Positions 6,770 to 28,423 of a DNA stretch of 64,000 nucleotides are shown one piece after another (positions within the stretch are counted from its first letter, which is position 1; each line of letters begins with the position of its first letter). The stretch spans positions 1,025,457 to 1,089,456 of the forward strand of contig NZ_QNRT01000001.1 of the NCBI RefSeq assembly GCF_003315245.1, written 5' to 3'. A program made the translations under genes and the position numbers. This stretch comes from Arenicella xantha (lineage in GTDB: Bacteria > Pseudomonadota > Gammaproteobacteria > Arenicellales > Arenicellaceae). Below the pieces are notes generated by a model, which did no database searches, was not told where the DNA came from, and was given only the letters and a program-made list of their open reading frames with translations.

Positions 6770-7330
6770 TTATGAATCTGCCAAAATACTTGTTAGTGTG
6801 AATTCTTGAGTAAACGAATCACCATCAGTATCCGTTGTATCAGCCGCTTCGCATGTGGCAGTAATGGTAAAAGTCACATCTTCAATCGGTTGCAGGTCAG
6901 TACAAAATGGTGCATCGGTAGCCGGACCGCGCCACACAACACGTGGACCAGCGGTATTCGTTGCAACACCTAAATCTTGAACATCGATCGTGGTATCTGC
7001 TGGCAATGACGCAGCCTCGATACTAATAATTGTTAACGAATTAGTTGGGTCAGCACTCAACACATCAAAAGTTGCACTACACACCGCTGGTGTGGTGGTA
7101 CCCGACACTGGACCAAATACAACGTTGCCAGTTACCACCGCCCCACAGAGCTCTGCAGGAGTCGGCAATGGTGGTTCTACATGAGGTTCTACCACCGATG
7201 TTTGCGCATGTGCGGGCATCACGACGCTGTTAATAACCGGCTTGTGCCATACAACCACGGCAGCGCCTGTGCCTAAGCCAAGTAGTACTTTACGGCGACT
7301 GCGTTGAGCATCAAGTTGTTCGTTCATCAT
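6770..7330 (-). CDS. Small exported protein with Tat-like WHKPV..PAHAQTS leader
   Basis: The 186-residue protein opens with RSRRKVLLGLG, a twin-arginine-type start, followed by a hydrophobic stretch and WHKPVINSVVMPAHAQTS, which ends in a signal-peptidase-like AHAQ. The mature part is a small, probably all-beta domain with a few cysteines (LCGAVV, AVCSATF, APFCTDL, ATCEAAD). The same leader pattern occurs in the protein at 24606-26096, inside the HprK-like/PqqD cassette. It starts 43 bases after the end of the giant gene and 106 bases before the S8 gene, all on the same strand, so the three are likely co-transcribed. I recognise the leader style from other proteobacterial small proteins but know no function. 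Confidence 0.8.
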   Translation of the reverse strand: MMNEQLDAQRSRRKVLLGLGTGAAVVVWHKPVINSVVMPAHAQTSVVEPHVEPPLPTPAELCGAVVTGNVVFGPVSGTTTPAVCSATFDVLSADPTNSLTIISIEAASLPADTTIDVQDLGVATNTAGPRVVWRGPATDAPFCTDLQPIEDVTFTITATCEAADTTDTDGDSFTQEFTLTSILADS

Positions 7331-12500: not shown

Positions 12501-15500
12501 AGCAGCAGTCTGCCCAGGTTGGTCGTCGACGTCACCATTCCCGTCGATAAGATCAACCGGATCAGCTTCGCCAACGGGCTCACCGCCGGCCGTCAAAGTA
12601 ATTACACCACTGGTGTGGATTTGATCCGCTAGGTTAGGGTCAAAACCGAGATCGATATTTGAGTCCTCATTACTGTCTGCAGACGGATCCCCAAACACAT
12701 CCGGGTCAGCCACTTGCAGCGGCGTTGGAATCAACGCGCCACCACCGACAACCGTGGACAAATCAACTTGCACTCGGTAATCGCCCGGCGCTAAATCATT
12801 GAAGAAATACTGGCCTTCTGCATCGGTCACAGTAGTGACTATTTGCACACCAGCGGTATACGGATCGCCATCAACCGGTGCGCCAGCGGCGTCAAGTAAC
12901 GTGACCGTTGCATTGACAATCGCAGGCTCGCCATCACCTTGGCTGCCATCGGCATTTTCATCCTGCCAAATCGTGCTACCTAAGCTTACTGGTCGCACAA
13001 AGCCCATATCAAGGGTCATGTTGCCAGCTGAGTCTGGGTTAACCCCGGTTAAATCTTGGCTAGGTTGATCAGCACCAACAACACCGATTGAATCGGTTTC
13101 GCTGAGCGGCTCAGTGCCAGGCGCTAGGGTAATGATGCCACTAGTATGAACTTGATCACTGATCGAATTTGAACCGGTGGTATCGAAAGCAAAATCGATA
13201 TTCGAATCATCGTTACTGTCTTCAGATGGATCGCCAGACAAATCTGGATCAGCGACTTGCAATGGCGTTGGTTTTAAATCAGCACCACCGACCACAGTAG
13301 ACAGGTCTACCTGAACGCGATAGTCCCCTGGCAGCAAGCCATTAAAGTGGTATTCGCCGCTAGCATTACTAACCACCGGCGTCACACCCGTAACTGCTAG
13401 GCCCGCGCTATCCAATAAGGTAACCGTGGCTCCCTCAATCGCTAGTTCGGCGGCATCTTGAATGCCATTACCATTTAAGTCTTCCCAAATGGTCGACCCT
13501 AAGCTCACTGGTTGAAAGAAGCCAAAATCGACTGTCATATTGCCATTGCTGTCGATTAGACCGCCTTGGTTAGGCTGATCGATCACCGGGCCGTTGTCAT
13601 TCACACCATCAATTGGATCGACTTCAAGCTCAGGCTCTGTGCCCAAACGTAAATCGATCACACCACTCCGGTATAGATCATCTGAGGTAATCGCTGGACT
13701 ACCATTCTGATCAACACTTGCGATGTTTGAATCGGTATTGTCATTATTTTCAGGGTCCGCAACTTGACTTGGTGTTGGGCTAATCGAACCCGCGCCAGTG
13801 ACTCCCGACATATCCACTTGAAGCATGTAACTGCCAGCCGGCAATCCATTGAAGTTATATTGGCCGGTCGAATCCGTGGTTGCAGTCAGCGCTTGTATAC
13901 CAGTCGCTACAGGGTCACGGTCGTAGACACTGCCATCACCATTTAGCAATGTCACTAACGCACCACTGATCGGCGGTTCGTTGTCATCTTGCCTACCATC
14001 GGTATTCGAATCTAACCACACGGTACTACCGAGACTCACCGGTTCAATAAAACCAAAATCGACTGTCATATTACCGTTGGCATCGGGTTGATCAGCCGCA
14101 GTTAAAGCCTGATTCGGCTGGTCCGCACCAGGCGTGCCGATAGGGTCAACCTCATTCAGTGGCTCACCGCCAACACTCAGCGTGATAACACCACTGGTGT
14201 GAATTAAGTCCACTGGATTTGAATCAAATAACTGATCAATATTGGAATCGCTATTATTGTCTTGTCCTAGCCCTGGCGCATCAGGGTCAGCGACCTGCGC
14301 AGGAGTTGGTACAAGGGCACTGGCATTGCTGTTGCTGGCTGTCGATAGATCAATCTGGATTCGATAATCACCTTCAGGTATACCATTAAAATTATACTGC
14401 CCTTGCGTATCGGTTAAGTCGGTTAGCGCTTGCACTCCAGCGACATTCGGGTCGCTGTCATAAACGCTGCCGTCGGCATTCAAAAGCGTTACCTGAGCAG
14501 CCACAATCGGCGGCTCACCAGCATCTTGAACGCCGTCTCCATTAACGTCTAACCAAGCAGTACTACCGACACTTACCGGCTTAATAAAACCCATGTCGAC
14601 CGTCATATTGCCCGACGTATCAGGATCATCGGCAGTCGATAGACCTTGGTTAGGTTGATCCGCACCACCGGCACCAATAGGATCTGTTTCACCGGCAGGC
14701 TCACCGCCAACGGTTAACGTAACAATCCCACTGGTATGAATTAAATCATTAGCATTGGTATCAAAAGCGACGTCAACGTTCGAATCCGTATTGTCGTCTC
14801 CAGCCGCATCTGGGTCGGCCACTTGCAACGGAGTTGGTATGTAATCATCGCTATCAGTCACCATACTCAAATCAACTTGAACGCGATAATCACCGGGAAT
14901 CAGACCGTCGAAGTTGTACTGCCCATCGATATCCGTAACGTCGGTTACGAGCTGCACTCCGGCGACATTTGGGTCACCGTCAACTGGAGTCCCAGCAGCC
15001 GTTAACAAGGTAACAGTAGCACCTTGTATCGCCGGTTCACCGGCATCTTGACTACCATCAGCATTTGAATCATTCCAAATCGTGCTACCCAAACTCACTG
15101 GTGCAAAGAACCCCATATCCACGGTCATATTACCGTTGGCATCAAGTTGTGCTGCACCTTGGTTAGGTTGGTCCGAACCGGGTACACCAATTGGATCAGA
15201 CTCAACCGCTAACAAGGGTTCGCCCCCAATACTTAGCGAAACCACACCACTTTGATAAATGTTTGCTGCTGGGTTATGTCCCGGAGCAGTCAGATCAACA
15301 TTGGAATCGGTATTGCTATCTTGCCCCGCTCCCGGCGCATCAGGATCGGGCGTTTGTAATGGCGTTGGTGACAACATCGCGCCGGTGTGACTAGTCGCAG
15401 TCGTTAGATTGACTTGCACACGGTAATCGCCTTCGGGTAGACCATTAAAATGGTATTGCCCTTGAGCATCGGTGGCCACTGTCAACGCATCGATGCCTGC

Positions 15501-18500
15501 GGTTGCCGGATTACTATCGTAGACCGAACCACCTGCATTCAATAGTGTTACCGACACACCAACAATAGGTGCTTCGCCAAGGGTTTGTACACCGTCACCA
15601 TTACTATCAAACCAAACAGTACTGCCAAGGCTGACTGGCTCAATAAACCCAAAATCAACCGTCATATTGCCATTCGCATCAGGATCGTCTGACGCAACCA
15701 AGCCCTGGTTCGGCTGATCCGGCCCAGGTGTGCCGATTGAATCGACCTCGCCCAACGGTTCGGCACCAGGTGTTAAAGTAACTATGCCACTAGTATGGAT
15801 TTGATCTGTTGTATTGGTATCAAAACCAGTGTCGATATTCGAATCGTCATTAGCATTTTGGCTAGGCCCCGCTGCATCGGGGTCAGCTACTTGGCGCGGT
15901 GTCGGCACTAACGTCGCCGCGTTTGCATTATTAGCGGTGCTAAGGTCAACCTGTACGCGGTAGTTGCCGGCAGGTAACCCATCAAAGTTGTATTGGCCAT
16001 CAGCATCAGTGACCGTGGTCAAGCTTTGCACACCAGCGGTATAGGGGTCGCTATCAAAAACAGTTCCATCGGAATTTAGTAGAGTGACCGTGGCATTCTC
16101 GACCGGCGTTTCACCTGCACTTTGAATACCGTCTTCGTTATCGTCAACCCACAAAGTACTACCAAGACTAACTGGCGGCACAAAGCCCATATCCAGAGTC
16201 ATGTTCCCCGCGTTATCTGCAAGCCCTGCTTGGTTCGGCTGATCGGGGTCAGTGCTTACACCAGTGCCTGTCGCGTTAATCGGATCTCTTTCGTTGCTCG
16301 GCTCAGTTCCCGCCAACAACGTGATCGGACCACTAATGTGAACTAAGTCGGCCAGATTAGTATCCGCGCTGTAATCAATATTTGAATCGAGCTGGTTATT
16401 ATTATTTGGCGCGGCAACTTGCGTCGGCGTGGGCAAATAATCATCGATATTCAAGATTGGAGACGTCGACAAATCTACCGATACGCGATACGTCCCTGGC
16501 ACCAAATCATTGAAATGGTACTGACCAGCTGCATCGGTGGTGGTTTGCACTAACTGAACACCTGCCAGTCCGAGATCACCGTCAATAGGTGTACCGGCCG
16601 AATCAAGCAATGTCACCGTTGCTCCGGCTATGGCACCTTCACCGCTGTTTTGTACGCCATTACCATTCGTGTCGACCCAAATAGTACTCCCCAAACTTAC
16701 GTCAGGAACAAAACCAAAATCCGCGCTTAAGTATGAATTTGTGTCAGGAAACGCAATATCCGCAGCGATATTTTCAGTCAGTTCGACGTTCGCATCACTG
16801 GTGTCGGTCGCGCTGCTGCCAGTAACACCATTACTGGAAGTATCACTCTCGCCAGTCACTGCCCCGCCAACGGTTAAATTTAACAGCGTTGAAACCGACG
16901 CATAAGTTGCCGGCACTAACGACCCAAACGTACCAGGCGCACCGTCATCCTCATTGTCTGTAGCTAAAGCAGTACCCGCCGCCGACGTGGGAGTTGACGA
17001 TTGAAGAGTGTCAGTGCTATATGGATCGCCGCCAGCAGTTAGCCCACTTTGACCCTCAGGGATCGCGATAAAATAGTTTCCTTCATCTAGGCCGTCGAAC
17101 AGATACTGACCCTGTGCATCAGTGGTATCTGTCACCAACAATTGATCCAAATTCGGATCAAAAATACCGTCGCCATCATCCAGATACAGCTGTGTTTGTA
17201 GATTCGCAATGGCCGGTTCACCGCTTTCAGCGATACCATCGTTATCTTCATCGAGCCAGACATGATTACCTAAGCGAAGGCGATAAAAACCAAAATCAAC
17301 ACTCACGTTTGAGTCATTGTCATCAAAAAAGTCTGCGTCGTCGTCAGCCGCATCATCATTGCGCAGCTGCTCATCGACCGGCTCCTCACCTAGCGCCAAG
17401 TTCACCGTTCCAGAATAGATTCCATCAAAACCAGCCGGCAGTGGTGTCACTAAATCATCGGATGTAAACGCGCCGTTGTCGTCGTTATCAAGATTACTGT
17501 TGGCGTTGGGCTCATCAGTCGTTGAAGAATAGTTGTCATCCAACACAAACGAACCGGTTTGTGCATTCGGTATCACCACGTAGTAGTTACCAGCAGGAAT
17601 ACCTAGGTTGTCACGATTTGCGATATCGGCATCATCGAACAAGTAATGACCTTGCGCATCTGTTTGCATGCTGTCAAACAGCGTGTCGTCTGCACTTGGA
17701 CCATCGCCAGTTACATCCACCCAGAGCTGCACAGTCACATCAAACAAGCCTTGCTCACCAGCATTGGCAATGCCGTCGTTATTGGTATCTAACCAAACTA
17801 GATTACCGATTCTCAAGCCGCTCGATTGCAAGGGAAATTCAGCCGGCGTAATGATTCCTGTCTTAACGATTTCAGCAGATAATAAACGCGCGTCATCGTT
17901 AGCGTTGGTAGCCCGATGTGCAATATTATTCCATGCGATTTGCAAATCTCCAGCCACATAATCTGATGCCGGAGCATCCGCCTGAGACAACATATCCAAG
18001 CTGATGATAATGTCTTCATCAGTGGGGTTAAACGGGTCGCCGACTGGCCAAGCGTTGCCGGAAAATGGCACATATACACGCCACGCACGCACACTGGCAT
18101 AACCTTCAGGAAACGTAATTGCGTCAGCTAAAGGCGTTTCAGTCCAGTCGTCAACACAACCGGGCTGCCAACCACTACCACCAAGATCATTGGCAATAGA
18201 AAGCTCTGGACGACAAGAAGTGGCAGACGCTGAATACTCGATTACGGCGTTGGTGAGTTCTGCAGCAACTGTTGGGTTGGCACTAGCCAGAGTAACTGGC
18301 CCCATCAATTGTGGCTCCCAAGTCGATGCACGACTCACGCCAGCTAACGCTTCGGAGATACCGGTATCAGACCCCGCAGTATCGGTGTTTGGTAGCACGT
18401 CATAAACCACGTAATTGCTTAGCGGCACATTGCCGTCGTTACTTAAGCGTATACGGTAGTCAAACGGCTGATCTTTCATCGCTTGCGCGACACATGGCGC

Positions 18501-20861
18501 TTTGGTTCGACCACTGCCATCATCTGCACAGTAAGCTGGCGTCGCAATACCCGCACTCGCTGCCGCTGTATTATCCGCTGGAGGATTTGACGGATCAAAA
18601 TTAGGCAAGCCAGGGAAGCCACCAATGAACTTTTCGCCGCCTAACGAAGCCGCACTTAGAATATTAAACGTGTCATTAGTCTGACAAATTTTCTCACTGG
18701 TATCGGCATCGCTATCAATGTCATTAGTATCGGGCAAGTCAGTGGTAAGACCATTTAAGCATCGTAAATCAGCTGTATTCTGCTGAGTAGACTCTAGAAA
18801 ATTTTGTACCCCACCTTGCGCTAATACCCCAGCACGAACCTTGAGGGTAACGCCAAGTCTAACCGCTGTCGCAATACCGAAGTCACCAGTTGCGTCACCG
18901 ACATTGTCATTATTTCGGTCCGGTCGAACTGGAAAAGTAAACGGGTTATTAACCGGTAAATCGCCAAGCTGACCACCGAGCTGAATTGCTCCGGCTGGTG
19001 CGACATTCTGCCAGCTCCAGCGCAACATCGTCGCATTCGCCGCCGTACAGGTATTCCCAGCATCACCGGGCGCAATTACCTCTAAGTTTGGCTCAACGCC
19101 AATCGGTTGAGTATTGACAGTATCAATAGCGTTACGTGGGTCATCAAGACCAATAAATCCCAAGGTATCCCAAGATACAAACTCTAATTCTGGACTCAAA
19201 CAATCCGTGACAGTTGGATTTTGCGCACCAACCGAGCTGGTGTTGTCTTGCAAGAAAGTAAATGTAGTGGTAAACGGCTGACCGGGCTGTACTGCCGATG
19301 GCATCGCTTTAGCCAAGCTAATATCAGTGGAATCCTCGACAATAGTGACGGTTTGACAAGCACTCGGATCACTTACCATTGGGTCCGCGGTAATTTGATC
19401 GGTAGTCACGGTAGCACAATTCTCAAACGTGCTTGGTGGCGGCCCAACGGTCAACGAGGGATCGTTTGTCAAATGCGCCACAGTGAACATTCCACCATCA
19501 AACCCTGGCGGTACTGGCGTGGTGAACTCGACTCGAAAACCAGTGGCGGTGGCTGACAATAATTGAGAAAAACCGTTAGCCAAGCCAATCATGCCATTGT
19601 AGCTGGTTAATAAGGTGTTACTTGGTAGCTCGATAATGTTTGCTTCAACAGATTGATCACTCCATCCGTCATGCACCAAAGTTAACGGTTCAATCTCCAC
19701 CGGGAAGACATCTTCAAGCACAACATTAGTCTGCTGCACATTAGTTTTTGAAGTGTCGAAAGTAATGTAATACTCATTGCGCGCACCAACTCCAACCGAG
19801 TCACGTTTAACAGTTTTTTCAAGGTCTGCATCCGGTGTTGGAACATCTAAGGTACTTTCAACCGAAGACGTACACGAATTCGGACACGTTGCAGGGTCAA
19901 TGTTATCGCCGTTTAAATTCGCAGTATTAGTAACGGTCTCGGCAATCGAAAAATCGGCAGACGGATACTGCACTGCTAACCTAACCACCTGACAGCCATC
20001 GGCGGGATCAAACTCAGTCACACCAAGGCTAGCAAAGTCGAAGCCCAATGCTGGGCACGCACCGGTTGTCGGCAGCACGCTGTTCATCAAATTATCGTTT
20101 CTTAACGTTGCACCAACCACTGTCGCGCCAGTTTCGCAAACATCGCTCAACACAGGGTTTTCTAAGATGATGGTGCCGGTTCCAATGCCAGCTGGACCAT
20201 TTGGGCATATCTCAATCCGGTACACCACATCATTATCTAATGCAGGACCTACTGAGCCCCCAGGAACGGATACTCTTTTAGAGATTTCCCAATTATTGCT
20301 AGGCGGATTTAGCGTTGGACTACTGGTCGCCGATACCGAGCCGACATTCGCGACGCTTGAGGTAGCCGTATTCACTAAGGTACTGGGTAAGCCGCTTGGA
20401 AAGTCCGCTAAGTCGGTCGACAATGCTCCAACGATTGTTGCGTTAGCAGAGTCTCCGTCAGCAAGCACATCAGGCGACGGCAAATCGATGGTCACAGTAT
20501 TAGTAACCGGGTCGTGCGTACAAGTGTAGATATTGTCAGACACTAAACAGGTTTCAAAAATAAACCCTTCTGGCAGCGGATCGGTAAGCGTAAATTCGCC
20601 GCAGTCATTCGGCGGTGTGCTAACAATGCTGCAGTTCCATTGCAACTGATATTCAAAAGCCTGACCTAGCTCAAGTTCAGTCAATGCATTATTAGTTCCA
20701 AGCTCTTGAGCTTCTTTAACCAACGAGCTTGCGGCTTGACCATATACTAACGGCGTAGAGAGCACTGAGAAAAGCATCACCGTAAACAGCAAACCGAATT
20801 TAACCTGAAGACTAGTAGCTCGCGCTACTGCGTAAGAGTTATCCGAACTTAATACGAGCAT
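7374..20861 (-). CDS. Giant exported repeat protein: DUF11-like, 16 SdrD/B-type repeats, C25 cysteine peptidase
   Basis: Single open frame of 4495 codons. Residues ~1-45 look like an export signal. Residues ~50-1010 contain DUF11-like segments (EKTVKRDSVGVG, SLAKAMPSAVQPG). About residues 1015-3618 hold 16 SdrD/B-type repeats, each with a calcium-loop motif such as WLDVNGDGVQDAGEPP followed by GQYNFNGLPEGDYRVQVDL. Then come a beta-sandwich (~3624-3720), a very basic Lys/Arg/Gln linker (~3724-3770), a signal-peptide-like stretch at 3772, and a C25-type caspase-fold domain (~4140-4490) with likely catalytic His4368 (FFGHSSTNQW) and Cys4402 (VTQWGCWNAY). The protein is expected at the cell surface or outside as an adhesin/peptidase. 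It heads the run giant, small Tat-like protein, S8 peptidase. The internal signal suggests the frame may be a fusion or may make two products. Confidence 0.88.
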   Translation of the reverse strand: MLVLSSDNSYAVARATSLQVKFGLLFTVMLFSVLSTPLVYGQAASSLVKEAQELGTNNALTELELGQAFEYQLQWNCSIVSTPPNDCGEFTLTDPLPEGFIFETCLVSDNIYTCTHDPVTNTVTIDLPSPDVLADGDSANATIVGALSTDLADFPSGLPSTLVNTATSSVANVGSVSATSSPTLNPPSNNWEISKRVSVPGGSVGPALDNDVVYRIEICPNGPAGIGTGTIILENPVLSDVCETGATVVGATLRNDNLMNSVLPTTGACPALGFDFASLGVTEFDPADGCQVVRLAVQYPSADFSIAETVTNTANLNGDNIDPATCPNSCTSSVESTLDVPTPDADLEKTVKRDSVGVGARNEYYITFDTSKTNVQQTNVVLEDVFPVEIEPLTLVHDGWSDQSVEANIIELPSNTLLTSYNGMIGLANGFSQLLSATATGFRVEFTTPVPPGFDGGMFTVAHLTNDPSLTVGPPPSTFENCATVTTDQITADPMVSDPSACQTVTIVEDSTDISLAKAMPSAVQPGQPFTTTFTFLQDNTSSVGAQNPTVTDCLSPELEFVSWDTLGFIGLDDPRNAIDTVNTQPIGVEPNLEVIAPGDAGNTCTAANATMLRWSWQNVAPAGAIQLGGQLGDLPVNNPFTFPVRPDRNNDNVGDATGDFGIATAVRLGVTLKVRAGVLAQGGVQNFLESTQQNTADLRCLNGLTTDLPDTNDIDSDADTSEKICQTNDTFNILSAASLGGEKFIGGFPGLPNFDPSNPPADNTAAASAGIATPAYCADDGSGRTKAPCVAQAMKDQPFDYRIRLSNDGNVPLSNYVVYDVLPNTDTAGSDTGISEALAGVSRASTWEPQLMGPVTLASANPTVAAELTNAVIEYSASATSCRPELSIANDLGGSGWQPGCVDDWTETPLADAITFPEGYASVRAWRVYVPFSGNAWPVGDPFNPTDEDIIISLDMLSQADAPASDYVAGDLQIAWNNIAHRATNANDDARLLSAEIVKTGIITPAEFPLQSSGLRIGNLVWLDTNNDGIANAGEQGLFDVTVQLWVDVTGDGPSADDTLFDSMQTDAQGHYLFDDADIANRDNLGIPAGNYYVVIPNAQTGSFVLDDNYSSTTDEPNANSNLDNDDNGAFTSDDLVTPLPAGFDGIYSGTVNLALGEEPVDEQLRNDDAADDDADFFDDNDSNVSVDFGFYRLRLGNHVWLDEDNDGIAESGEPAIANLQTQLYLDDGDGIFDPNLDQLLVTDTTDAQGQYLFDGLDEGNYFIAIPEGQSGLTAGGDPYSTDTLQSSTPTSAAGTALATDNEDDGAPGTFGSLVPATYASVSTLLNLTVGGAVTGESDTSSNGVTGSSATDTSDANVELTENIAADIAFPDTNSYLSADFGFVPDVSLGSTIWVDTNGNGVQNSGEGAIAGATVTLLDSAGTPIDGDLGLAGVQLVQTTTDAAGQYHFNDLVPGTYRVSVDLSTSPILNIDDYLPTPTQVAAPNNNNQLDSNIDYSADTNLADLVHISGPITLLAGTEPSNERDPINATGTGVSTDPDQPNQAGLADNAGNMTLDMGFVPPVSLGSTLWVDDNEDGIQSAGETPVENATVTLLNSDGTVFDSDPYTAGVQSLTTVTDADGQYNFDGLPAGNYRVQVDLSTANNANAATLVPTPRQVADPDAAGPSQNANDDSNIDTGFDTNTTDQIHTSGIVTLTPGAEPLGEVDSIGTPGPDQPNQGLVASDDPDANGNMTVDFGFIEPVSLGSTVWFDSNGDGVQTLGEAPIVGVSVTLLNAGGSVYDSNPATAGIDALTVATDAQGQYHFNGLPEGDYRVQVNLTTATSHTGAMLSPTPLQTPDPDAPGAGQDSNTDSNVDLTAPGHNPAANIYQSGVVSLSIGGEPLLAVESDPIGVPGSDQPNQGAAQLDANGNMTVDMGFFAPVSLGSTIWNDSNADGSQDAGEPAIQGATVTLLTAAGTPVDGDPNVAGVQLVTDVTDIDGQYNFDGLIPGDYRVQVDLSMVTDSDDYIPTPLQVADPDAAGDDNTDSNVDVAFDTNANDLIHTSGIVTLTVGGEPAGETDPIGAGGADQPNQGLSTADDPDTSGNMTVDMGFIKPVSVGSTAWLDVNGDGVQDAGEPPIVAAQVTLLNADGSVYDSDPNVAGVQALTDLTDTQGQYNFNGIPEGDYRIQIDLSTASNSNASALVPTPAQVADPDAPGLGQDNNSDSNIDQLFDSNPVDLIHTSGVITLSVGGEPLNEVDPIGTPGADQPNQALTAADQPDANGNMTVDFGFIEPVSLGSTVWLDSNTDGRQDDNEPPISGALVTLLNGDGSVYDRDPVATGIQALTATTDSTGQYNFNGLPAGSYMLQVDMSGVTGAGSISPTPSQVADPENNDNTDSNIASVDQNGSPAITSDDLYRSGVIDLRLGTEPELEVDPIDGVNDNGPVIDQPNQGGLIDSNGNMTVDFGFFQPVSLGSTIWEDLNGNGIQDAAELAIEGATVTLLDSAGLAVTGVTPVVSNASGEYHFNGLLPGDYRVQVDLSTVVGGADLKPTPLQVADPDLSGDPSEDSNDDSNIDFAFDTTGSNSISDQVHTSGIITLAPGTEPLSETDSIGVVGADQPSQDLTGVNPDSAGNMTLDMGFVRPVSLGSTIWQDENADGSQGDGEPAIVNATVTLLDAAGAPVDGDPYTAGVQIVTTVTDAEGQYFFNDLAPGDYRVQVDLSTVVGGGALIPTPLQVADPDVFGDPSADSNEDSNIDLGFDPNLADQIHTSGVITLTAGGEPVGEADPVDLIDGNGDVDDQPGQTAANPDNSGNMTVDMGFYAPVSIGSFVWQDSNGDGLQDANEPPLAAAQVALFVETTPGSGVFVAASQVGGAPVTAVTVGADGLYEFTNLPPGNYRVQVTPPTGFFPSPVQNTADNDDTANDSNIATEPSVGVFESGVFEVTSGAEPNETGSGTGRGDNQDGIDGSAEDLSGNMTIDFGFVPPASLGNYVWLDLDMDGVQDANEDGIANVTVNLYQDTDGNGVIDGAELTTPVATAVTGLNGEYLFPRLQPGVVYQTGVDVSSLPVGLVQTYDEGDGVGATDSLSDPIVLDPKEFHETADFGYAPAAGLGAVGDTIWVDANDDGVQSPGEPGIGNVTVSITPPTDVDLGAGLGVAITTVTDSSGRYLFPNLPLDESYIVEVDTNTLPLGYVSGPSNLGDPDVRDGNSATADNQTTVTITPANPINLDLDFGYLPPADQNNSIGDTLWIDVDQDGNGPATAGDGSDLTEPVLHGVTVTLIQDNGDGLYNPADDTVFATTVTDATGMYLFTGIPDGDYIVVVTDQNNVLAGLNQTVDSDDPANPGAFVAVTPNRSFVDDLGVGIATPVEDLDQDFGYVSSNTAGGDGVIGDTIFFDSNGSGAPDADEGLEGVVVELYGPGPDGVIGGGDDVLISTTTTDANGLYLFTGLDTSDTGANPGTDYQVVVVTSTLPNGGTGWTNSVDPDTSGTGDSVSVTTLTTTTPIDLDQDFGYVGDGDNAITGTIWPDTNGNGEQDEAGSLGGVTVELQDQNGNVIATTTTDTDGNYEFAGLPDGVYVVVVTDDDNVLNGFEHTDSPNGLTDTSDETSKDDTGYVVDLDSLGLIADPVIDNTGDFGYVPSITNPISLGLFTSSVDEAGSVRFDWSTQTEVANIGFNVYAQVDGDWIVLNPRLIASYGDAVSVQSYHFSAVTDATVFALSDIDLTGKETLHGPYVLGQSYGVIADRQAIDWQSEKAIREANKAERKAKREAQQRQRSLKRKQRRESKQQETSMFYKLLNQSVTVLLTAIIPTAHAAEGEDLVNLQTTEVGIHYISVADLAEFGVDLIGENAADLALSNRGNDVPIQVTGGAVVAADSQIRFIAEQLDTLYTGTNVYTLRLESGAALPMNIDTTAISSRAKVANSYLRTAKFAPQSSYSFTSPNPSDAFYAKRMIAIGEAASENVTLNLKNVAVGGNSGTTKAKLRVGVWGAANQAGVKKDHSVSVKFNGVSVASKEFDGLRGEQLEASLQEVREGINVVGLTLPLDTGYAFDAVNLDDVTVEYPSKFVAEDARLSYASNFSRFRIDGFKPTDLPNGKDDLVIMRQDTLSSVAVIDGNGKKASCNSSVCRIEVAGSGAAAQYYVATSNSMYSATPVALPLADDISSGNANYLIISHPDFIGSAGNFHLENLATELQSEMGSVDIVDVESIYAQFGDHIFDPQAIRDYIQFAHNNRGTKYVLLVGGDVYDYRNFENQDATSFIPSIYYATGNNITFAPVDAKYVDLNDDNVPDLPIARLPVRTTAQLGVLMGKRAAYLNRDYAGTALLVADGYDQAQQYDFGSDANEIEQDYLLNFQVEKAYVDQLGTSAARAKVKQQIESGITLTAFFGHSSTNQWSFNGLFTGPDAAGLNNVGKPTVVTQWGCWNAYFVSPNEDSMGHRFMMEGDRGAVAVMGASTLTDANNERELARLVFDRLANGERLGDAVTNAKQDYALENPDDLDVLLGWTVLGLPELIVN
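10005..17815 (-). repeat. Coding repeat array of 16 SdrD/B-type modules
   Basis: Sixteen modules begin with a [L/I]G[S/N/D]..W.D.N.DG..D..E motif. Modules 3 to 10 are the most alike, about 150-170 residues each, sharing a second conserved half (PTP.QVADPD, DSNID, IHTSGI.TL, DQPNQ, GNMTVD.GF). The array drives strong base-level similarity along nearly 8 kb. Confidence 0.85.
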
Positions 20862-22268: not shown

Positions 22269-23114
22269 TTAGTCGAGCACTAAGGCTTTCAATTGCTGCG
22301 CGAATGTCTCAGGTAAGCAATCGAAGCCGCCGTACTCTAGCGAATAACACGGCGTGTTTCGAATCAGCGCCATCATCGCTCGAAAGCCATGCCCATCAAG
22401 ATTGCGCGCATTAACGTGATTTGCCATTAAGCGCATTCCAGCTTCGGCGCTAGAGAGCTTAGCAAAAGAAAAATCTGCATCACTGCGGTATTTAGGAAAC
22501 ACCAATAAACCGACCTCTAAGCCAGCGCCCGCAACAGTTACGCTGCCCAAACTTTGCACCGGCACGGCATTGGCAAAATCACCGTGTTGCACCAAGTCGA
22601 GATGCTCAATTAAGTGTTCCACCGCCGACAAGCCATGCGACTTAATCTGAATCGGGCGGGCAATACCTTGCAGGTGCTGGTCATCATCTATCAAGATTAG
22701 TTCGTCGGTAACATACGCAAATTGCTTGGCCGCCAACCACGTCGTAAAGCTGCTCTTACCTGCACCGCTATTAGCCGGAATAATAATAGCTCTCCCTTGA
22801 TGCGCCACTGCCGCTGCATGCAAGCAATGCGCTGCACGACTGTTATCGGCAATGTGAAACACTATCCGATCGGTCAAATGGTATATAACATCACCAGTCT
22901 TTAGCAGACGTTGCGTTGCTCCGTTGGAGTGATCAACCAACTCCCACGCCTGTTGCGTTGCATCGTGCGCCAAGCTAAGTTCAGTACCTTGACTAGCTGC
23001 CACTGACTGTACCGGCATGGCCGACAGTGCTAGTTCAATTAACGCCACCGACGCCACATCGTTGGCGCATACGGTAAGCTGAACCCCCGCCATGTCTATT
23101 AGCCAACGCTGCAT
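22269..23114 (-). CDS. HprK-related serine kinase-like ATPase (HPr-rel-A type)
   Basis: The 281-residue protein resembles the C-terminal half of HPr kinase/phosphorylase. It has LHAAAVAHQGRAIIIPANSG leading into the Walker A loop ANSGAGKSSFTTWLA, and YVTDELILIDDD as the following acidic motif. It lacks the N-terminal half of true HprK, and no HPr gene is nearby. The gene sits 7 bases downstream of a PqqD-like gene and behind a nucleotidyltransferase. This combination matches the annotated 'HPr-rel-A' cassette (recalled family name) and resembles maturation genes of some lasso peptide clusters, where a homologue phosphorylates the peptide. Substrate unknown; the secreted triple-repeat protein in the same operon is a candidate. 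Confidence 0.82.
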   Translation of the reverse strand: MQRWLIDMAGVQLTVCANDVASVALIELALSAMPVQSVAASQGTELSLAHDATQQAWELVDHSNGATQRLLKTGDVIYHLTDRIVFHIADNSRAAHCLHAAAVAHQGRAIIIPANSGAGKSSFTTWLAAKQFAYVTDELILIDDDQHLQGIARPIQIKSHGLSAVEHLIEHLDLVQHGDFANAVPVQSLGSVTVAGAGLEVGLLVFPKYRSDADFSFAKLSSAEAGMRLMANHVNARNLDGHGFRAMMALIRNTPCYSLEYGGFDCLPETFAQQLKALVLD

Positions 23115-23121
23115 AAGCGAA

Positions 23122-23403
23122 TTAACCTGACACCACTGCTTGAATTACCCCTTGCTCCAACATATCGCTCACAGTCGCAATCACATCTGGCTCAATCTGC
23201 GCTGCTTGGTCTGGGTACGCCTCTTGCAAGCTAGTAATAATGGTAGCCAACGAATACTCACCAGTGAGCAGCTGCCAAACCACGGTCGATGGACCGTTTA
23301 AATGCAAAGTGGTGGCGGTGTTCGGGTTATAGACGAGCAGTTCGCCATCCATATCCTCCATTAAACAATCCGGCACTTGCCGGTATATTCCGTGCGTATT
23401 CAT
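23122..23403 (-). CDS. PqqD-like carrier/chaperone of the HPr-rel-A cassette
   Basis: The 93-residue protein has the PqqD layout: an N-terminal beta part DGELLVYNPNTATTLHLNGP, then STVVWQLLTGEYSLATII and a helical C-terminus IATVSDMLEQGVI. PqqD-family proteins bind a precursor peptide and present it to a modifying enzyme. Here it lies between the HprK-like kinase (7 bases) and the nucleotidyltransferase (17 bases), consistent with one complex. No radical-SAM gene is nearby, which separates it from PQQ or sactipeptide loci. Confidence 0.85.
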   Translation of the reverse strand: MNTHGIYRQVPDCLMEDMDGELLVYNPNTATTLHLNGPSTVVWQLLTGEYSLATIITSLQEAYPDQAAQIEPDVIATVSDMLEQGVIQAVVSG

Positions 23404-23420
23404 AGGTTGGGTATTGTACG

Positions 23421-24533
23421 CTAGCCGCCAAGCAAGGCGGAAAAGATTCTTCGGCTAAGCCAATTAGCGACCCGCAACGGATGCCGAACCCACTTCACCA
23501 TAAACAGCGATCGATCTGGGTCAACACCGTAATACAAATGCAGCCACCAGTCGGACGGACGAAACAACAGCGTTAGCCGTTCTGACATAGGTCGCTTAAC
23601 ATTTAACGCATTACGCAAAGACCCCATAATTTGACCAACTCCTGCGACTATTTTGATCGGCATCGGTGCCAACTCAGCCAGCAGTTGCGGCGGCAATGGA
23701 GTCAATAAATGCAAACAGCGCAACGTGTTAATTACGTGCGGGAACTCGCTACGCAGCTGATCAAATCGACCCGCCTCTAGCACCTTGAGCGCTAAACCAA
23801 TAACGTCCATCACGTTAATCAACTTAAGCGTGGCACTCGGATGTAAGCCTTCTAAGTGACGCGCTACCTGATGCAACATTCGCACATCATCCAGCGCGCT
23901 AAAAGTTAAGCCGTCCCACTCGATGGTTTGCATATGCGCCGCATTGCTTGGGTAATAAAGATGGCCAGGCACCTCGCGTGAAATACCATCATGGTGTAAC
24001 TCGACACTACATATAAACCCATCGATAGTTTTGGTAGCGTTGGGCAGCTGATGCATGTCGCGCATAAAACGGCTGGGCTGCGCGTCGGGCATTGAGTAGC
24101 CTATTTCACGTAGCAATTCTCCAGACCGATTTAAATCCGCACGTGGCACTAGCAAGTCCATGTCGCGCATGGGCCGCAAATAAGCATCACCATATAAATG
24201 CGGAGCTAGCGCAGCACCTTTGAGTGCAACATACGGAAGATTTTCGCGCTTAAATACCGCATCGATTTCCTGCAAAGCTTTATGGCGTGCTTTAGCCGCG
24301 GCGACATGGCGCATTTTCAGCGCTTTGAGCGGCGCATTAAGCGCTTCCGGCACCGGCAAGTGCAGCTCGGTCACATGCTTATTGGAAAATCCAGACAGGC
24401 CATGTATTTCAACTTGGTCAATCCACTCCTGCCAATCTTGCACATTCAGCAGTAGGTCACGAACGTGCTCGCGGCCTTCGCTGTCGATATTGAATTGCGC
24501 TAGGGCCGCAACGGAAGTTAGAGGAATATGCAT
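23421..24533 (-). CDS. NTP_transf_5-type nucleotidyltransferase family protein
   Basis: The 370-residue protein has the nucleotidyltransferase core VALKGAALAPHLYGDAYLRP followed by MRDMDLLVPRADL. The MRDMDLLV stretch supplies the metal-binding aspartates of the polymerase-beta-like fold, and a helical C-terminal half follows. Members of this family occur in peptide-modification clusters together with PqqD- and HprK-like proteins. The gene lies between the triple-repeat secreted protein (72-base gap) and pqqD-like (17 bases), all on the reverse strand. It probably transfers a nucleotide or similar group; substrate not identifiable from sequence. Confidence 0.82.
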   Translation of the reverse strand: MHIPLTSVAALAQFNIDSEGREHVRDLLLNVQDWQEWIDQVEIHGLSGFSNKHVTELHLPVPEALNAPLKALKMRHVAAAKARHKALQEIDAVFKRENLPYVALKGAALAPHLYGDAYLRPMRDMDLLVPRADLNRSGELLREIGYSMPDAQPSRFMRDMHQLPNATKTIDGFICSVELHHDGISREVPGHLYYPSNAAHMQTIEWDGLTFSALDDVRMLHQVARHLEGLHPSATLKLINVMDVIGLALKVLEAGRFDQLRSEFPHVINTLRCLHLLTPLPPQLLAELAPMPIKIVAGVGQIMGSLRNALNVKRPMSERLTLLFRPSDWWLHLYYGVDPDRSLFMVKWVRHPLRVANWLSRRIFSALLGG

Positions 24534-24605
24534 AGTGCGAGTCTAAACCACTTAACGCAAACCTCAAACCCGACCGGCAAAAAGCTGGTCGGGCCACAAG
24601 CCCAT

Positions 24606-26096
24606 CTACCCTCTCAAATCATAGTAACAATCTAACGGCATCTGGATTGATGTAGTGCCAGACGACAAGTAGAAATCTGCTTGAGCAACTTCAATTCTCT
24701 CTAACTCAATATACAAATCATTGGGGCCGTCTGACGACAAACGAGCGCGAATTGATTCATTACATCCGGCAACTACATTGCGGATATCAGTAAACGACTC
24801 AGCATTGAGCGTTAAGGTGGCCGACAGTACTGACCCAATTTGTGAGCCTCGGTCGCTGCGATCAATATACGACTCACTAAGACCAATCTCTACTTCATAG
24901 GTACCATTGCCATTGCTCGACGCATTCACAATAGTATGCTCTCTAAGTGCCTGAGCTGCCGATATGCCAGCATGTGCATTTGGAATCACCGCATTCAAAA
25001 GCCGCTCGCCAAGACTGTTCGACTTGCCTATGCCGAACGGTATACCTTGTCCACCACCGTTGGTAAAGTTGCCCTGCGGAGCGCATGAGCCAGGCTCTAA
25101 TATGCCAGAGCCAACGGGCAGTTCAACGTCCACCAAGCTACCATCGAGGTTCAGACTTAACATCATAGTAGAGTCATCTACCGACACCATTGTGGCCGAC
25201 ACAGGGTTTGCCCCTTTGTCAGGATCGTCACAGGTTGTACGCACTCGCAACAAGCTTCCAGCGCTCCCATCTACCTGAATAATGCCTTCGCGCAACGTAG
25301 TGCGGTCAAAACTCAACATGCCCACGCTGTAACTGTTTTCATCAATTTTGCTAGCTGACAGCGCCAGTGTGCGACTCTGAGGAATACGGCCCGCCTGCGC
25401 GGTTGGAATCAACACGTCGAGCAAACTTGTTTTGGCTATTCTGCTGCCTCCGGCGTCAGCGTCGGGATTGTAGAAGCTTTGCGGCAAACCAGTGTCTACA
25501 CACATTGGGCTTGGCAAACTACCAGAACCAGACGGCACAACTAAACGCTCAGAGCGGCCAGGAAGAGTTAACTCGACTTGCGCGTCAGTAACGCTTTCAA
25601 TAGTAATGTTAAGTGCACTCGGACTCAGCATACATGGGTCTTCAACCACCGCTAGATTGCCGCCACTCGCAACGCTCGCAACACCACTGTAGAGAACTTC
25701 GCCACGATTGGTAGTGCCTTCTAACGTACGCTCAAATAGCGACACCGTATACGAATCAACGCCGGCAGTAGTTTGCTCAACCATCACCGCATATTCGTAT
25801 GTGGCCGGCACATTCGCATACGCAGATTCAACTAGAAAGTCTAAAACCGAACCCGCCTTAGCAACCGGCGACACGGCCGCAGCGGCTGAGAAAAACACAA
25901 ATGGCGCAGCCGCTTCCACTGAAGTTTGCGCATGCGCTGGCAGTAAAACGGCATCAACTACAGGCTTATGCCAAATTGCTGTGGCGGTGCCGACGGCAGC
26001 ACCGATCAACACAGTACGTTTAGTTTTATCAATAGCTTGAACGTTAGTTTTTGGCGTCTTCACCACGCCCTTTGAAGTATTGTTGCTCATTCCCAT
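24606..26096 (-). CDS. Exported three-domain repeat protein with WHKPV..PAHAQTS leader
   Basis: I use the ATG at 26096 (MGMSNN), preceded by GGGATTGGG; an ATG at 26090 is also possible, and the frame continues upstream to 26186 without family-like sequence. The N-terminus has KTKRTVLIGAAVGTATA, then WHKPVVDAVLLPAHAQTS, the same leader as the protein at 6770-7330 but with KR instead of RR. The mature part is three copies of a ~135-residue domain, starting near bases 25851, 25431 and 25005. Each copy begins with a hydrophobic AxA-ending stretch (LVESAYAN, LLDVLIPTAQAG, LLNAVIPNAHAG), followed by S-Y-V strands, two conserved cysteines, and LP.GSG. It is the first gene of the HprK/PqqD/NTase operon, so it is the likely client protein. 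No known family recognised. Confidence 0.7.
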   Translation of the reverse strand: MGMSNNTSKGVVKTPKTNVQAIDKTKRTVLIGAAVGTATAIWHKPVVDAVLLPAHAQTSVEAAAPFVFFSAAAAVSPVAKAGSVLDFLVESAYANVPATYEYAVMVEQTTAGVDSYTVSLFERTLEGTTNRGEVLYSGVASVASGGNLAVVEDPCMLSPSALNITIESVTDAQVELTLPGRSERLVVPSGSGSLPSPMCVDTGLPQSFYNPDADAGGSRIAKTSLLDVLIPTAQAGRIPQSRTLALSASKIDENSYSVGMLSFDRTTLREGIIQVDGSAGSLLRVRTTCDDPDKGANPVSATMVSVDDSTMMLSLNLDGSLVDVELPVGSGILEPGSCAPQGNFTNGGGQGIPFGIGKSNSLGERLLNAVIPNAHAGISAAQALREHTIVNASSNGNGTYEVEIGLSESYIDRSDRGSQIGSVLSATLTLNAESFTDIRNVVAGCNESIRARLSSDGPNDLYIELERIEVAQADFYLSSGTTSIQMPLDCYYDLRG

Positions 26097-26304: not shown

Positions 26305-26805
26305 ATGACCCGACCGAATATGCAACGCCGCTTGGTTCTAGCATCCGCCATAACCTTAGGCGGGGCGGCCTTATGGGGACTAAATCGCCCGAAGAGCGAC
26401 CAGCACGGCACGCCGCGCAAGCAGCCCGAAACCACGCTCGCCAGCATGATCGACACACTGGTTCCGCGCGACGAATTCCCCGGTGGCATTGACATAGGAC
26501 TTGATCAAACCATTGCTCAGCAAATGGCCCAACAACCAAAGCTCAACCAGTTGATCGCTCGACTATTGCCGATTATCGAACGCAGCGCGGTCACGGAATA
26601 CCACCGCGCCTTTTACCGACTCACTATTGACCAACGCGAAGCGCAGCTAAGCAAGCACTGGTATCAAAGCACTAACCCCATAGTTCGCCGCGACTTTATG
26701 CAATTTAGGCGGCATGTTCTGGCGCAGTATTATGAGTCGCCCATTGGCCAGCAAAGCATGGGATATCAACATCCCACGACCTACCCCAACTACCATGTCG
26801 AGTAA
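26305..26805 (+). CDS. Gluconate 2-dehydrogenase subunit 3-like protein (Tat-type leader)
   Basis: The 166-residue protein begins MTRPNMQRRLVLASAITLGG, a twin-arginine-like leader, and continues with SMIDTLVPRDEFPGG, typical of the small subunit of periplasmic GMC dehydrogenases. Its C-terminus FMQFRRHVLAQYYESPIGQQ also fits that family. The small subunit carries the export signal and escorts the flavoprotein. The next gene, a GMC oxidoreductase, overlaps it by 11 bases. The start may be the ATG at 26305 or at 26320 (MQRR). Divergent from the triple-repeat protein gene, with about 200 bases between. Confidence 0.82.
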   Translation: MTRPNMQRRLVLASAITLGGAALWGLNRPKSDQHGTPRKQPETTLASMIDTLVPRDEFPGGIDIGLDQTIAQQMAQQPKLNQLIARLLPIIERSAVTEYHRAFYRLTIDQREAQLSKHWYQSTNPIVRRDFMQFRRHVLAQYYESPIGQQSMGYQHPTTYPNYHVE

Positions 26806-28423
26806 GCAGACCAGTCCGCAATTTGATGTGCTCATTATTGGCTCCGGCGCGGGCGGCGGCATGGCGGCGCTACGACTCTGTGAGCAAGGCTTTAAAGTCG
26901 GGTTGATTGAGCGCGGGCCGCGCTTTAACCACAAAACGGACTTTGTGCTCAACTACCCAGATTGGGAGTCGCGCCGCAACCCACTTGAACACGCACGCCA
27001 ACAAGAACAAACCATCAACTACGACTACCGTAGCGCTGCCGCAGCTGGCGAGCAAAGCCGTGCACCGTTCCATTATCATCGAGTTCACGGTGTTGGCGGC
27101 AGCACGCTGCACTACCAGGGTGAAGCACATCGCTTTGCCGAACATGCCTTTAATATCAAAACCCGCTTCGGCTACGGACTTGATTGGCCGATTGGCTACC
27201 GCGACCTAGCCAGCCACTACCAGCAAGCTGAGACCTTACTCGGCGTAGCCGGAGAAGTCGGCAATCCGCATAAGCCCGAGCGCGAAGCATTTCCAACTCC
27301 TGCGCATCCTCTGAGTAGCCGCAGCCGTATTTTGGCCAAGTCAGCTCAGACAGTGGGCTTTACTGTGCTCCCCAATACACTCGCTTTACCAAGCCAAAGC
27401 ATTGACGGAAGACTACCCTGCCAACATAGCGGCGGCTGTAACTTCGGCTGCGTATTCGGCGCCAAATCAAGCATCGACCAAGCCATTATTCCGCGCGCCG
27501 AAGCAAGCGGCAACCTCACACTAATCACCAACACCCGAGTAACCAGCCTAACCCTTGATCAATCTGGCGCGATTACCGGCATAAACTGCCTCAACGACAA
27601 AACGCCCAGTCGGCTTTACGCCAAGCGATACGTACTAGCCGGTGGCGCGGTAGAAACACCACGCTTAATGCTCGCGAGCACCAACCAAGCCGCAGCAAAC
27701 GGTTTCGCCAACCAACACGACCAAGTCGGTCGATACTTTATGGAAACCGTGGTCGCCAGCGTGCAAATGCAATTGTCGAGCGACACAGAGCTGTATCGCG
27801 GGCCTCCGCTAGATTCCAGAGTGTGGGACTTCTATAAACCCAAAGACGCGTCAATAAGCGGCTTTGTGCTCGGCTCAGCGGGCTATCTGTACCCGGCGAT
27901 TGGGCCGGTTAACCACGCCTTGCAAACGCCGGGCATCGGCCGTGCGCACAAACGCCAAGTACGCCAGACATTCGGGCAAAAAATTATCTTATTCGGCGTT
28001 ACCGAGCAGGAACCTATCGCCGACAACCGAGTGTTTTTGAGCCAGCAAAATGATCAGGCAGGCATACCCAAGGTGAATATCCAAAGCCGCTACACACAAC
28101 GCGACAAAGCTACCATTAGCGCGATGCGCGACAAGTTACTGGCCTGGGGTCGTGCCACGCCGAATGCAAAGGTCCAAAGCATCTCCGACAGCAACGTTCG
28201 ATCATCAGCAACTCATGTTGGTGGCTCGTGTCGTATGGGGCATAACCCAGAAACATCAGTGGTGGATGCCTTCGGCAAAGTGCATGGTCAGTCTAATTGC
28301 TATGTCGCCGATGCCAGCGTGCTGCCAACCCAAGGTTGCGGCGACTCACCATCATTAACCATTCAAGCCCTAGCGCTGCGCACCGCCGACCGCATCGTCG
28401 CAGACCTAAAAAGAGAGACATAA
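26795..28423 (+). CDS. GMC-family FAD-dependent oxidoreductase
   Basis: The FAD-binding dinucleotide loop FDVLIIGSGAGGGMAALRL lies at the N-terminus, followed by VHGVGGSTLHYQGEAHRF (GMC signature) and the C-terminal HVGGSCRMGHNPETSVVD and NCYVADASVLPTQG, where the active-site His/Asn sit in this superfamily. The cysteine-containing HSGGCNFGCVFGAKSS stretch is typical of gluconate/sorbosone-type GMC dehydrogenases. I start at the ATG at 26795 (MSSKQTSPQFDVLI), about 543 residues, overlapping the small subunit stop. It has no signal of its own, so it is probably co-exported with the upstream Tat-type partner. Substrate unknown, likely a sugar or alcohol. Confidence 0.9.
   Translation: MSSKQTSPQFDVLIIGSGAGGGMAALRLCEQGFKVGLIERGPRFNHKTDFVLNYPDWESRRNPLEHARQQEQTINYDYRSAAAAGEQSRAPFHYHRVHGVGGSTLHYQGEAHRFAEHAFNIKTRFGYGLDWPIGYRDLASHYQQAETLLGVAGEVGNPHKPEREAFPTPAHPLSSRSRILAKSAQTVGFTVLPNTLALPSQSIDGRLPCQHSGGCNFGCVFGAKSSIDQAIIPRAEASGNLTLITNTRVTSLTLDQSGAITGINCLNDKTPSRLYAKRYVLAGGAVETPRLMLASTNQAAANGFANQHDQVGRYFMETVVASVQMQLSSDTELYRGPPLDSRVWDFYKPKDASISGFVLGSAGYLYPAIGPVNHALQTPGIGRAHKRQVRQTFGQKIILFGVTEQEPIADNRVFLSQQNDQAGIPKVNIQSRYTQRDKATISAMRDKLLAWGRATPNAKVQSISDSNVRSSATHVGGSCRMGHNPETSVVDAFGKVHGQSNCYVADASVLPTQGCGDSPSLTIQALALRTADRIVADLKRET

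Follow-up and report, generated by a model that had tools for sequence, protein, structure and literature searches.

The window is a stretch of 64,000 nucleotides from the 4.44 Mb genome of Arenicella xantha (G000 C1:1025457-1089456). Its minus strand carries four genes in a row, encoding an exported protein, an NTP_transf_5 enzyme (NTP5), a PqqD-like protein and an HprK-related kinase. The last three genes are referred to here as the cassette and the exported protein as its candidate client. The first-pass annotation had read the row in this way, and the family matches and reading frames agree with it. All four frames are open at the coordinates below, and the intergenic gaps, from client to kinase, are 72, 17 and 7 bp.

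24606..26096, minus strand: candidate client, an exported protein of 496 aa with three beta-rich domains (start at 26096, MGM.., or at 26090)
25929..26096, minus strand: client leader, which is its signal peptide (residues 1-56, with the end ..KR..W42HKP45VVDAVLLPAHA56; cut position predicted by eye)
25962..25973, minus strand: WxxP (W-15..P-12), the motif predicted to bind the PqqD-like protein (72/72 leaders; also the motif in PMC13381572)
25920..25922, minus strand: codon of Ser59, which is Ser3 of the predicted mature protein (AHA/QTS, the slash marking the predicted cut) and the predicted phosphorylation site (S/T at +3 in 72/72 leaders)
23421..24533, minus strand: NTP_transf_5 nucleotidyltransferase-fold enzyme, 370 aa, with putative catalytic K105 G106, D124 and D126 (PF14907, 101.4 bits, cut-off 31.2)
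23122..23403, minus strand: PqqD-like protein, a discrete RiPP (ribosomally synthesized and post-translationally modified peptide) recognition element (RRE), 93 aa (PF05402, 42.1 bits, cut-off 23.4)
22269..23114, minus strand: HprK-related kinase, 281 aa, with H99, Walker A PANSGAGKS and TDE (TIGR04352 HprK_rel_A, E 4.3e-30)

The residues expected of such enzymes are largely conserved. The PqqD-like protein has profile matches to the structures of TbiB1, LppB and PbaB1. In our own mapping from the alignment its N36, Y63 and D73 correspond to the leader contacts N33, Y60 and D70 of LppB, and they are kept in 25, 23 and 23 of 26 PqqD-like sequences. The kinase has profile matches to HPr kinase structures (1jb1/2qmh, E 0.002). 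Its H..GxxGxGKS layout was found by regular expression in 44 of 48 sequences, and the remaining four also have DE after the P-loop. Across 32 NTP5 sequences R120, D124, D126 and D243 are invariant and K105 and G106 are present in at least 90%. The NTP5 structure model has a predicted local distance difference test score (pLDDT) of 92.5, and its best fold match is ANT(2'')-Ia (E 1e-4, template modeling score 0.35 by query), followed by other nucleotidyltransferases. When the NTP5 sequence was compared with solved structures only viral proteases matched, which was taken as chance. Terminator and promoter scans gave results at about chance level.

The conserved leader

Judged by sequence comparison, the conserved element of the client is its leader, W-x-x-P-...-PAHA/QTS, together with the first three predicted mature residues, and not the three-domain body. 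With its leader (WHKPVVDAVLLPAHAQTS) the client matches eight further places in its own genome, all inside its first 98 residues. The idea of a conserved client stands for the leader and the mature N-terminus and falls for the body. Counted from the AHA site, all 72 unique leaders collected have W at -15 and P at -12 with no insertions or deletions, and W-15, P-12 and V-10 of the window client fit the motif [Y/W]xxPx[L/V/I/F/A]. This is the leader motif described for linear polyphosphorylated peptides (LPP) of Paenibacillus alginolyticus (Popov et al. 2026, PMC13381572).

Position +3 after AHA is serine or threonine in 72/72 leaders (69 S, 3 T). Elsewhere S/T was found at +1 in one leader, at +2 in 62 and at +4 in 10. 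The pattern used to find the site fixes P-4 and A-1 and the profile contains an S column, which biases this count. The search was therefore repeated with a model ending at AHA and with no pattern. It gave S/T at +3 in 72 of 75 matches and, outside the family, in 25/25 (22 S, 3 T). Of the three exceptions, two are matches lacking a PAHA site and one is a leader of another type. The first-pass annotation named no modification site; from these alignments it is likely to be mature Ser3, close beside the position where signal peptidase would cut.

The body of the client matched nothing in NCBIfam or Pfam at E<=1. Its structure model shows three beta-rich blocks at low confidence (mean pLDDT 37), so that the earlier description as a three-domain protein is a fair one. 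With block boundaries drawn by hand, blocks 1 and 2 are alike in sequence (z 5.9, 0/500 shuffles as good), blocks 1 and 3 weakly alike (8/500) and blocks 2 and 3 unlike (305/500). Each block is preceded by an internal motif:

25815..25847, minus strand: VLDFLVESAYA, before domain 1
25392..25424, minus strand: LLDVLIPTAQA, before domain 2
24969..25001, minus strand: LLNAVIPNAHA, before domain 3

A second A-x-A motif of this kind, roughly LLDxLIPxAxA, stands behind the leader and ahead of the domains in many clients (window client residues 84, 225 and 366; also L003, L008, L062, L068 and L128-L130).

Distribution of leader and cassette

In the family sample (21 genomes; leader profile A1 at E<=1e-6, close HprK at E<=1e-30; here and in the samples below, neighbouring gene boundaries come from a codon-usage script and are approximate) 67 leaders were counted by hand in 17 genomes. 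A single genome encodes up to 10 leader-bearing proteins, most with different bodies. These include a recurring Cys-rich mini-protein, fasciclin (PF02469, L065), a P-domain (PF01483, L052) and Thr-rich tails, among others. Apart from the window client, leader genes inside and outside the family have open frames of 62 to 537 aa.

A close HprK is present in 14 of the 21 genomes, and 13 of these 14 have a leader somewhere. Within the genus the order NTP5-PqqD-HprK is kept wherever a contig shows all three genes, so the core is not a chance arrangement. Its usual flanks are mutY (labelled by eye) and trmB (TIGR00091 in the window). A leader-bearing client adjoins the cassette in only three of the 14 genomes (G000, G004, G008). 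In six others (G001, G002, G010, G013, G015, G017) a mutY-like gene, also identified by eye, directly abuts NTP5. The client slot otherwise holds a C25-peptidase-like gene (G006), a second NTP5 (G005) or a transposase-like open reading frame (G014, by eye), and the contigs of G009 and G012 end too early to show it. The first-pass expectation that a client-like gene would lie next to most cassettes thus fails in the window's genus. The abutting mutY-like genes also led us to reject adjacency as proof of clientship there. What survives of the client idea is a leader-bearing exported substrate; the neighbouring gene is not a fixed client. In this genus one cassette would act in trans on several exported proteins that bear the leader.

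A second, distant PqqD-NTP5 pair (G000 C8:10496-11540) has homologues in 18/21 family genomes, and no HprK lies within 1.5 kb of it in the window's genome. Four genomes without the HprK cassette (G003, G007, G011, G016) keep this pair. A further PqqD-like gene (G000 C3:373223-373423, L226) adjoins a gene that looks sulfotransferase-like.

Across 369 Gammaproteobacteria genomes (leader profile A3 at E<=1e-4, HprK at E<1e-40) the leader was found in six (G000, G001, G017, G143, G213, G099) and HprK in six (G000, G001, G017, G143, G213, G317). Five genomes have both, three of them from the window's genus. One 11 kb contig of G143 carries the cassette together with two leader genes, whereas in G213 no leader is on the contig of HprK. 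Among 251 Chloroflexota genomes (leader E<=1e-3, HprK E<=1e-30) the leader occurs in six and close HprK in seven, all six leader genomes being among the seven. The overlap gives a Fisher value of 2e-11, uncorrected for relatedness and with three of the six already known from the HprK scan. Every one of the six leaders lies within 1.3 kb of the close HprK match. Three genomes (G459, G523, G563) were found leader-first, and each has leader, PqqD, HprK and NTP5 in a row. In the seventh HprK genome (G651) the contig ends inside an apparent client.

Scanning named genomes for HprK first yielded 51 loci, and this collection overlaps in some genomes with the other one (e.g. L193 = G143 and L176 = G008). 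The window-type leader was found in 22, here grouped by record title: two in the window's genus, two in other Gammaproteobacteria, three in Alphaproteobacteria, three in Desulfobacterota and 12 in Chloroflexota. In at least 10 further loci (Alkalimonas, Rheinheimera and Aestuariibacter/Marisediminitalea) the client lies upstream and bears a different leader, either ..SLPARSVWA.. or ..SLPVKSVWA... An adjacent leader-bearing client of either type is thus present in at least 32 of the 51 loci, across phyla. Twenty genomes with non-Arenicella leader and cassette loci hold 24 leader genes in total, exactly one in 17 of them. In Chloroflexota the cassette would usually serve one client, encoded beside it.

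Many of the more distant cassettes have a different client leader. In 20 gammaproteobacterial loci with a distant HprK, hand-picked from the class scan (L155-L174), 18 have an adjacent RR-leader client. These clients often read ..PVIMTLASRPVxG.., then C..SG..SGNLS and a SPGYWK-like motif; those of L165, L172 and L174 have YxxPx[VI]. The two loci where no adjacent client was seen are L169 (a masked stretch) and L170 (a 5.6 kb contig). Clientship therefore appears general to the system and the leader type variable. Since many distant cassettes carry these other leaders, the claim that the first gene always encodes a WHKPV..PAHAQTS protein was too broad. As far as sequence can tell, the underlying assignment was right: a PqqD-like presenter, an HprK-like modifier and an exported protein with that leader as the substrate.

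It is therefore highly probable that leader and cassette belong together. Several observations weigh against a tight link. In the family, four of the seven genomes without close HprK carry leaders (G007 one, G011 one, G016 four, G019 one). Three of these (G007, G011, G016) lack the NTP5 and PqqD of the cassette and retain only the second, distant pair; because of them the idea that the leader depends strictly on the cassette was rejected. G019 has no NTP5 match. G009 (78% complete) has close HprK and no leader. In the class sample, G099 (81% complete) has the leader and no HprK match, G317 (91% complete) has close HprK and no leader on a contig that ends at the HprK gene, and in 60 of the 369 genomes any HprK match is distant (E 1e-5 to 1e-30) and the window-type leader is absent. 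Among the HprK-first loci no client was present among the matches listed in 19 of 51 (nine from the window's genus, seven mostly from Desulfobacterota and three very distant). A regular expression for weaker [WYF]xxP leaders, applied to 18 clientless loci, found none near the cassette. It gave two matches at far locus ends, taken as chance (the same expression matches 26/1433 genes overall). The leader gene of G099 (L128, C41), with no HprK in sight, sits in a cluster with sugar-nucleotide and glycosyltransferase genes, as judged by eye.

These leaders without a cassette could mean that the leader is merely an unusual signal peptide, that the cassette acts on something else and that the genes are neighbours only by operon habit. 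The AHA sequence would suit signal peptidase, and most leader genes of the genus are far from the cassette. However, outside the family the leader is nearly absent without close HprK in both the Gammaproteobacteria and the Chloroflexota samples, conservation extends past the cleavage site, and the fixed W-15/P-12 spacing is that of a known RRE motif. A signal peptide and nothing more is therefore very unlikely.

The window has a second leader-bearing gene, which is a possible client in trans:

6770..7327, minus strand: second leader-bearing gene (WHKPVINSVVMPAHAQTS, identified by leader match), directly downstream of the giant gene 7374-20861

The giant gene (minus strand) encodes a 4495-aa exported protein with 16 SdrD_B stretches. 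Its C-terminal domain is a gingipain-like Peptidase_C25, ahead of which an internal stretch (MFYKLLNQSVTVLLTAIIPTAHA) resembles a signal peptide. Small leader genes directly downstream of giant exported repeat proteins were also seen in L146, L149, L152, L154, L139 and L140. In L147 and L148 the small leader gene is downstream of a C25-like gene that itself follows a giant repeat protein. The gingipain-like part seems to be a separate gene with its own signal-like start in G006, G007 and G016. Such separate genes were assigned by similarity in L035 (8433-10748, from this set) and by position and N-terminus only in L148 (8270-10444) and L147 (4803-6977).

Predicted modification and related systems

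A route of modification is proposed because of the leader grammar, the parallels with LPP and lasso peptides, and the conserved RRE and NTP5 residues. Before export the PqqD-like protein would bind WxxPx[VIL] at -15 to -10 in the signal peptide of the client and hand the client to the HprK-related kinase, which would place a phosphate on Ser3 (or Thr3) of the future mature N-terminus AHA/Q-T-S. The NTP_transf_5 enzyme might then elaborate this phosphate, as PsmN adds a hexose to phosphoserine in pseudomycoidin. Export would most likely be by the twin-arginine (Tat) route, since the leader carries RR/KR, and cleavage would follow AHA. Among 10 clients scanned, TIGR01409 (twin-arginine) was above cut-off in one (L201) and slightly below in another (L203).

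The closest known relative is LPP. Its lpp cluster encodes the RRE LppB, the kinase LppK and the NTP transferase LppN (PMC13381572). The two systems share a discrete PqqD-type RRE, an HprK-like kinase, an NTP transferase, a [Y/W]xxP leader and variable bodies after a conserved N-terminus. LppK phosphorylates core Ser3, the position of the 72/72 S/T in the leaders studied here; deletion of LppN gave no detectable change (PMC13381572). The LPP precursors are 35-200 aa long with YxxP, whereas the window-type clients are full-length exported proteins (496 aa in the window) with WxxP inside the signal peptide. The LPP system further includes its own SpI-like peptidase and MsbA-like transporter. The family scan of the window (NCBIfam, Pfam) covered eight genes, namely the four-gene set, TrmB, two genes at 26305-28423 and the giant gene, and neither was seen among these eight, genes further out not being scanned. 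The LPP paper terms its system restricted to Bacillota (PMC13381572), whereas the window-type system occurs in other phyla.

Lasso peptide clusters of the paeninodin type (PadeK, PsmK/PsmN, PbaB1) are also similar, with an HprK-like kinase, a nucleotidyltransferase homologue and an RRE motif in the same numbering (PMC9266682; PMC13381572); contacts in the PbaB1-PbaA complex include W-15 and P-12 of PbaA (PMC13381572). They differ in that their site is the C-terminal Ser and not the predicted Ser3, and in having a macrolactam cyclase and a B2 peptidase, for which no family match was found among the eight window genes. The Bsf lasso cluster shares the kinase, a discrete RRE, a predicted nucleotidyltransferase (BsfN) and Ser3, which BsfK phosphorylates in its lasso core (PMC10368454). 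Unlike the window system it makes a small peptide, with lasso cyclization and a B2 leader peptidase. The precursors of DUF2063 RREs, which belong to DUF2282, have a signal peptide like the window client, but theirs is a Sec signal followed by a variable leader, described in PMC12710340 as lacking a recognised motif.

Since these lasso and LPP relatives make small peptides, the cassette could instead produce a free peptide, with a leader or client fragment excised, modified and released and the beta domains serving as carriers. The A-x-A motifs before each domain, and similar ones in other clients, would fit. On the other hand, the clients include known folded domains (fasciclin, P-domain) and a beta-propeller-type body, and no dedicated peptidase or ABC transporter is found among the scanned neighbours of the window cassette. 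A free peptide as the product is highly improbable.

A different product is suggested by glycosyltransferase (GT) genes. In G143 (L125) two poly-Thr clients have an HprK-GT2-GT25 fusion on one side and, on the other, a GT2 protein whose end is PqqD-like (below the Pfam cut-off). In G213 (L129) a client with a Thr-rich stretch precedes a PqqD-GT2-GT25 protein. In the window's genome a client with a TTTxAP tail lies 2.2 kb from a Gly_transf_sug-PqqD-GT2-GT25 protein of 897 aa (L136), and at a further locus of this genome (L135) a TPR-GT2 gene begins 13 bp after another Thr-rich client. The PqqD domains of L129 and L136 are above the Pfam cut-off. These arrangements suggest that O-glycosylation, too, is recruited by the same leader-RRE pair. 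Fusions of RREs with PF00535 glycosyltransferases are noted in PMC12710340. A PqqD domain was also seen in a 1316-aa open frame (G004 C81:64203-69053) about 4.5 kb from a leader gene, a candidate PqqD fusion near a client.

Leader and cassette could then be linked with glycosylation (or nucleotidylation) of the client as the main product, the Ser3 phosphate being absent or transient and PqqD bringing leader proteins to glycosyltransferases. Besides the fusions and the Thr-rich clients that share their loci (two in L125, one each in L129 and L136), this is in line with the location of LPP clusters in polysaccharide loci (PMC13381572), with the weak resemblance of the NTP5 fold to FKRP, and with pseudomycoidin, where PsmK phosphorylates and the hexose is added by PsmN, or by a host enzyme after nucleotidylation (PMC9266682). 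However, no glycosyltransferase was found among the scanned neighbours of the window cassette, the window client lacks a Thr-rich tail, the invariance of the +3 serine extends to clients that have no Thr tails, and HprK retains a kinase-like P-loop. Glycosylation in place of a stable Ser3 phosphate is rather unlikely.

What the sequences support is the gene set, the leader grammar and its fixed spacing, adjacency, co-occurrence, and conserved active-site and leader-binding residues. The reading of these as an RRE-HprK-NTP system, known from small RiPPs and here acting through signal peptides on full-length exported proteins with Ser3 phosphorylation, appears probable, at moderate confidence. 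Against it stand the window client's signal, which has KR where a twin-arginine signal has RR and gave no Tat model match, and the failure of LppK to phosphorylate an S3T variant (PMC13381572). Thr2 may be an alternative site, +2 being S/T in 62/72 leaders. The NCBIfam assignments are also below threshold. The HPr-rel-A system (NCBIfam TIGR04352, TIGR04353) is defined by a neighbourhood of kinase, PqqD-like and NTP_transf_5 genes, and the window has this neighbourhood and the same gene kinds. Its matches (E 4e-30 and 8e-5) are both under the curated cut-offs, with the kinase at 104.8 bits for an equivalog cut-off of 200 and the PqqD-like protein at 23.6 bits (TIGR04353, PqqD_rel_X) for a cut-off of 35. 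The distant gammaproteobacterial cassettes seen here differ from that of the window in their client leaders, as described above for PVIMTLASRPVxG with its SPGYWK-like motif.

A wider and doubtful extension is a cross-phylum protein-labelling code in signal peptides. In it the RRE would read WxxP and the kinase prime Ser3, and nucleotidyl- and glycosyltransferases, some fused to RRE or kinase, might assemble a phospho-linked glycan, either at that residue or on Thr-rich tails, coupling the protein to surface polysaccharide.

In the open-licence PMC literature searched, the names HPr-rel-A, HprK-related kinase, HprK_rel_A and TIGR04352 are absent, as is the string PAHAQTS. Nothing was found there that combines PqqD, twin-arginine, glycosyltransferase and nucleotidyltransferase, or RiPP recognition element, twin-arginine and signal peptide. 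RRE-guided modification is known as a route to small natural products. In the window-type system its parts appear to act on ordinary exported proteins, with the motif in the signal peptide. The candidate substrates have fasciclin, P-domain, beta-propeller-type, Cys-rich and mucin-like bodies. The annotated gene set HPr-rel-A thereby gains candidate clients, a putative binding motif and a specific predicted residue, and a relative of the Bacillota system described in 2026 is now placed in four other groups (Alphaproteobacteria, Desulfobacterota, Chloroflexota and Gammaproteobacteria).

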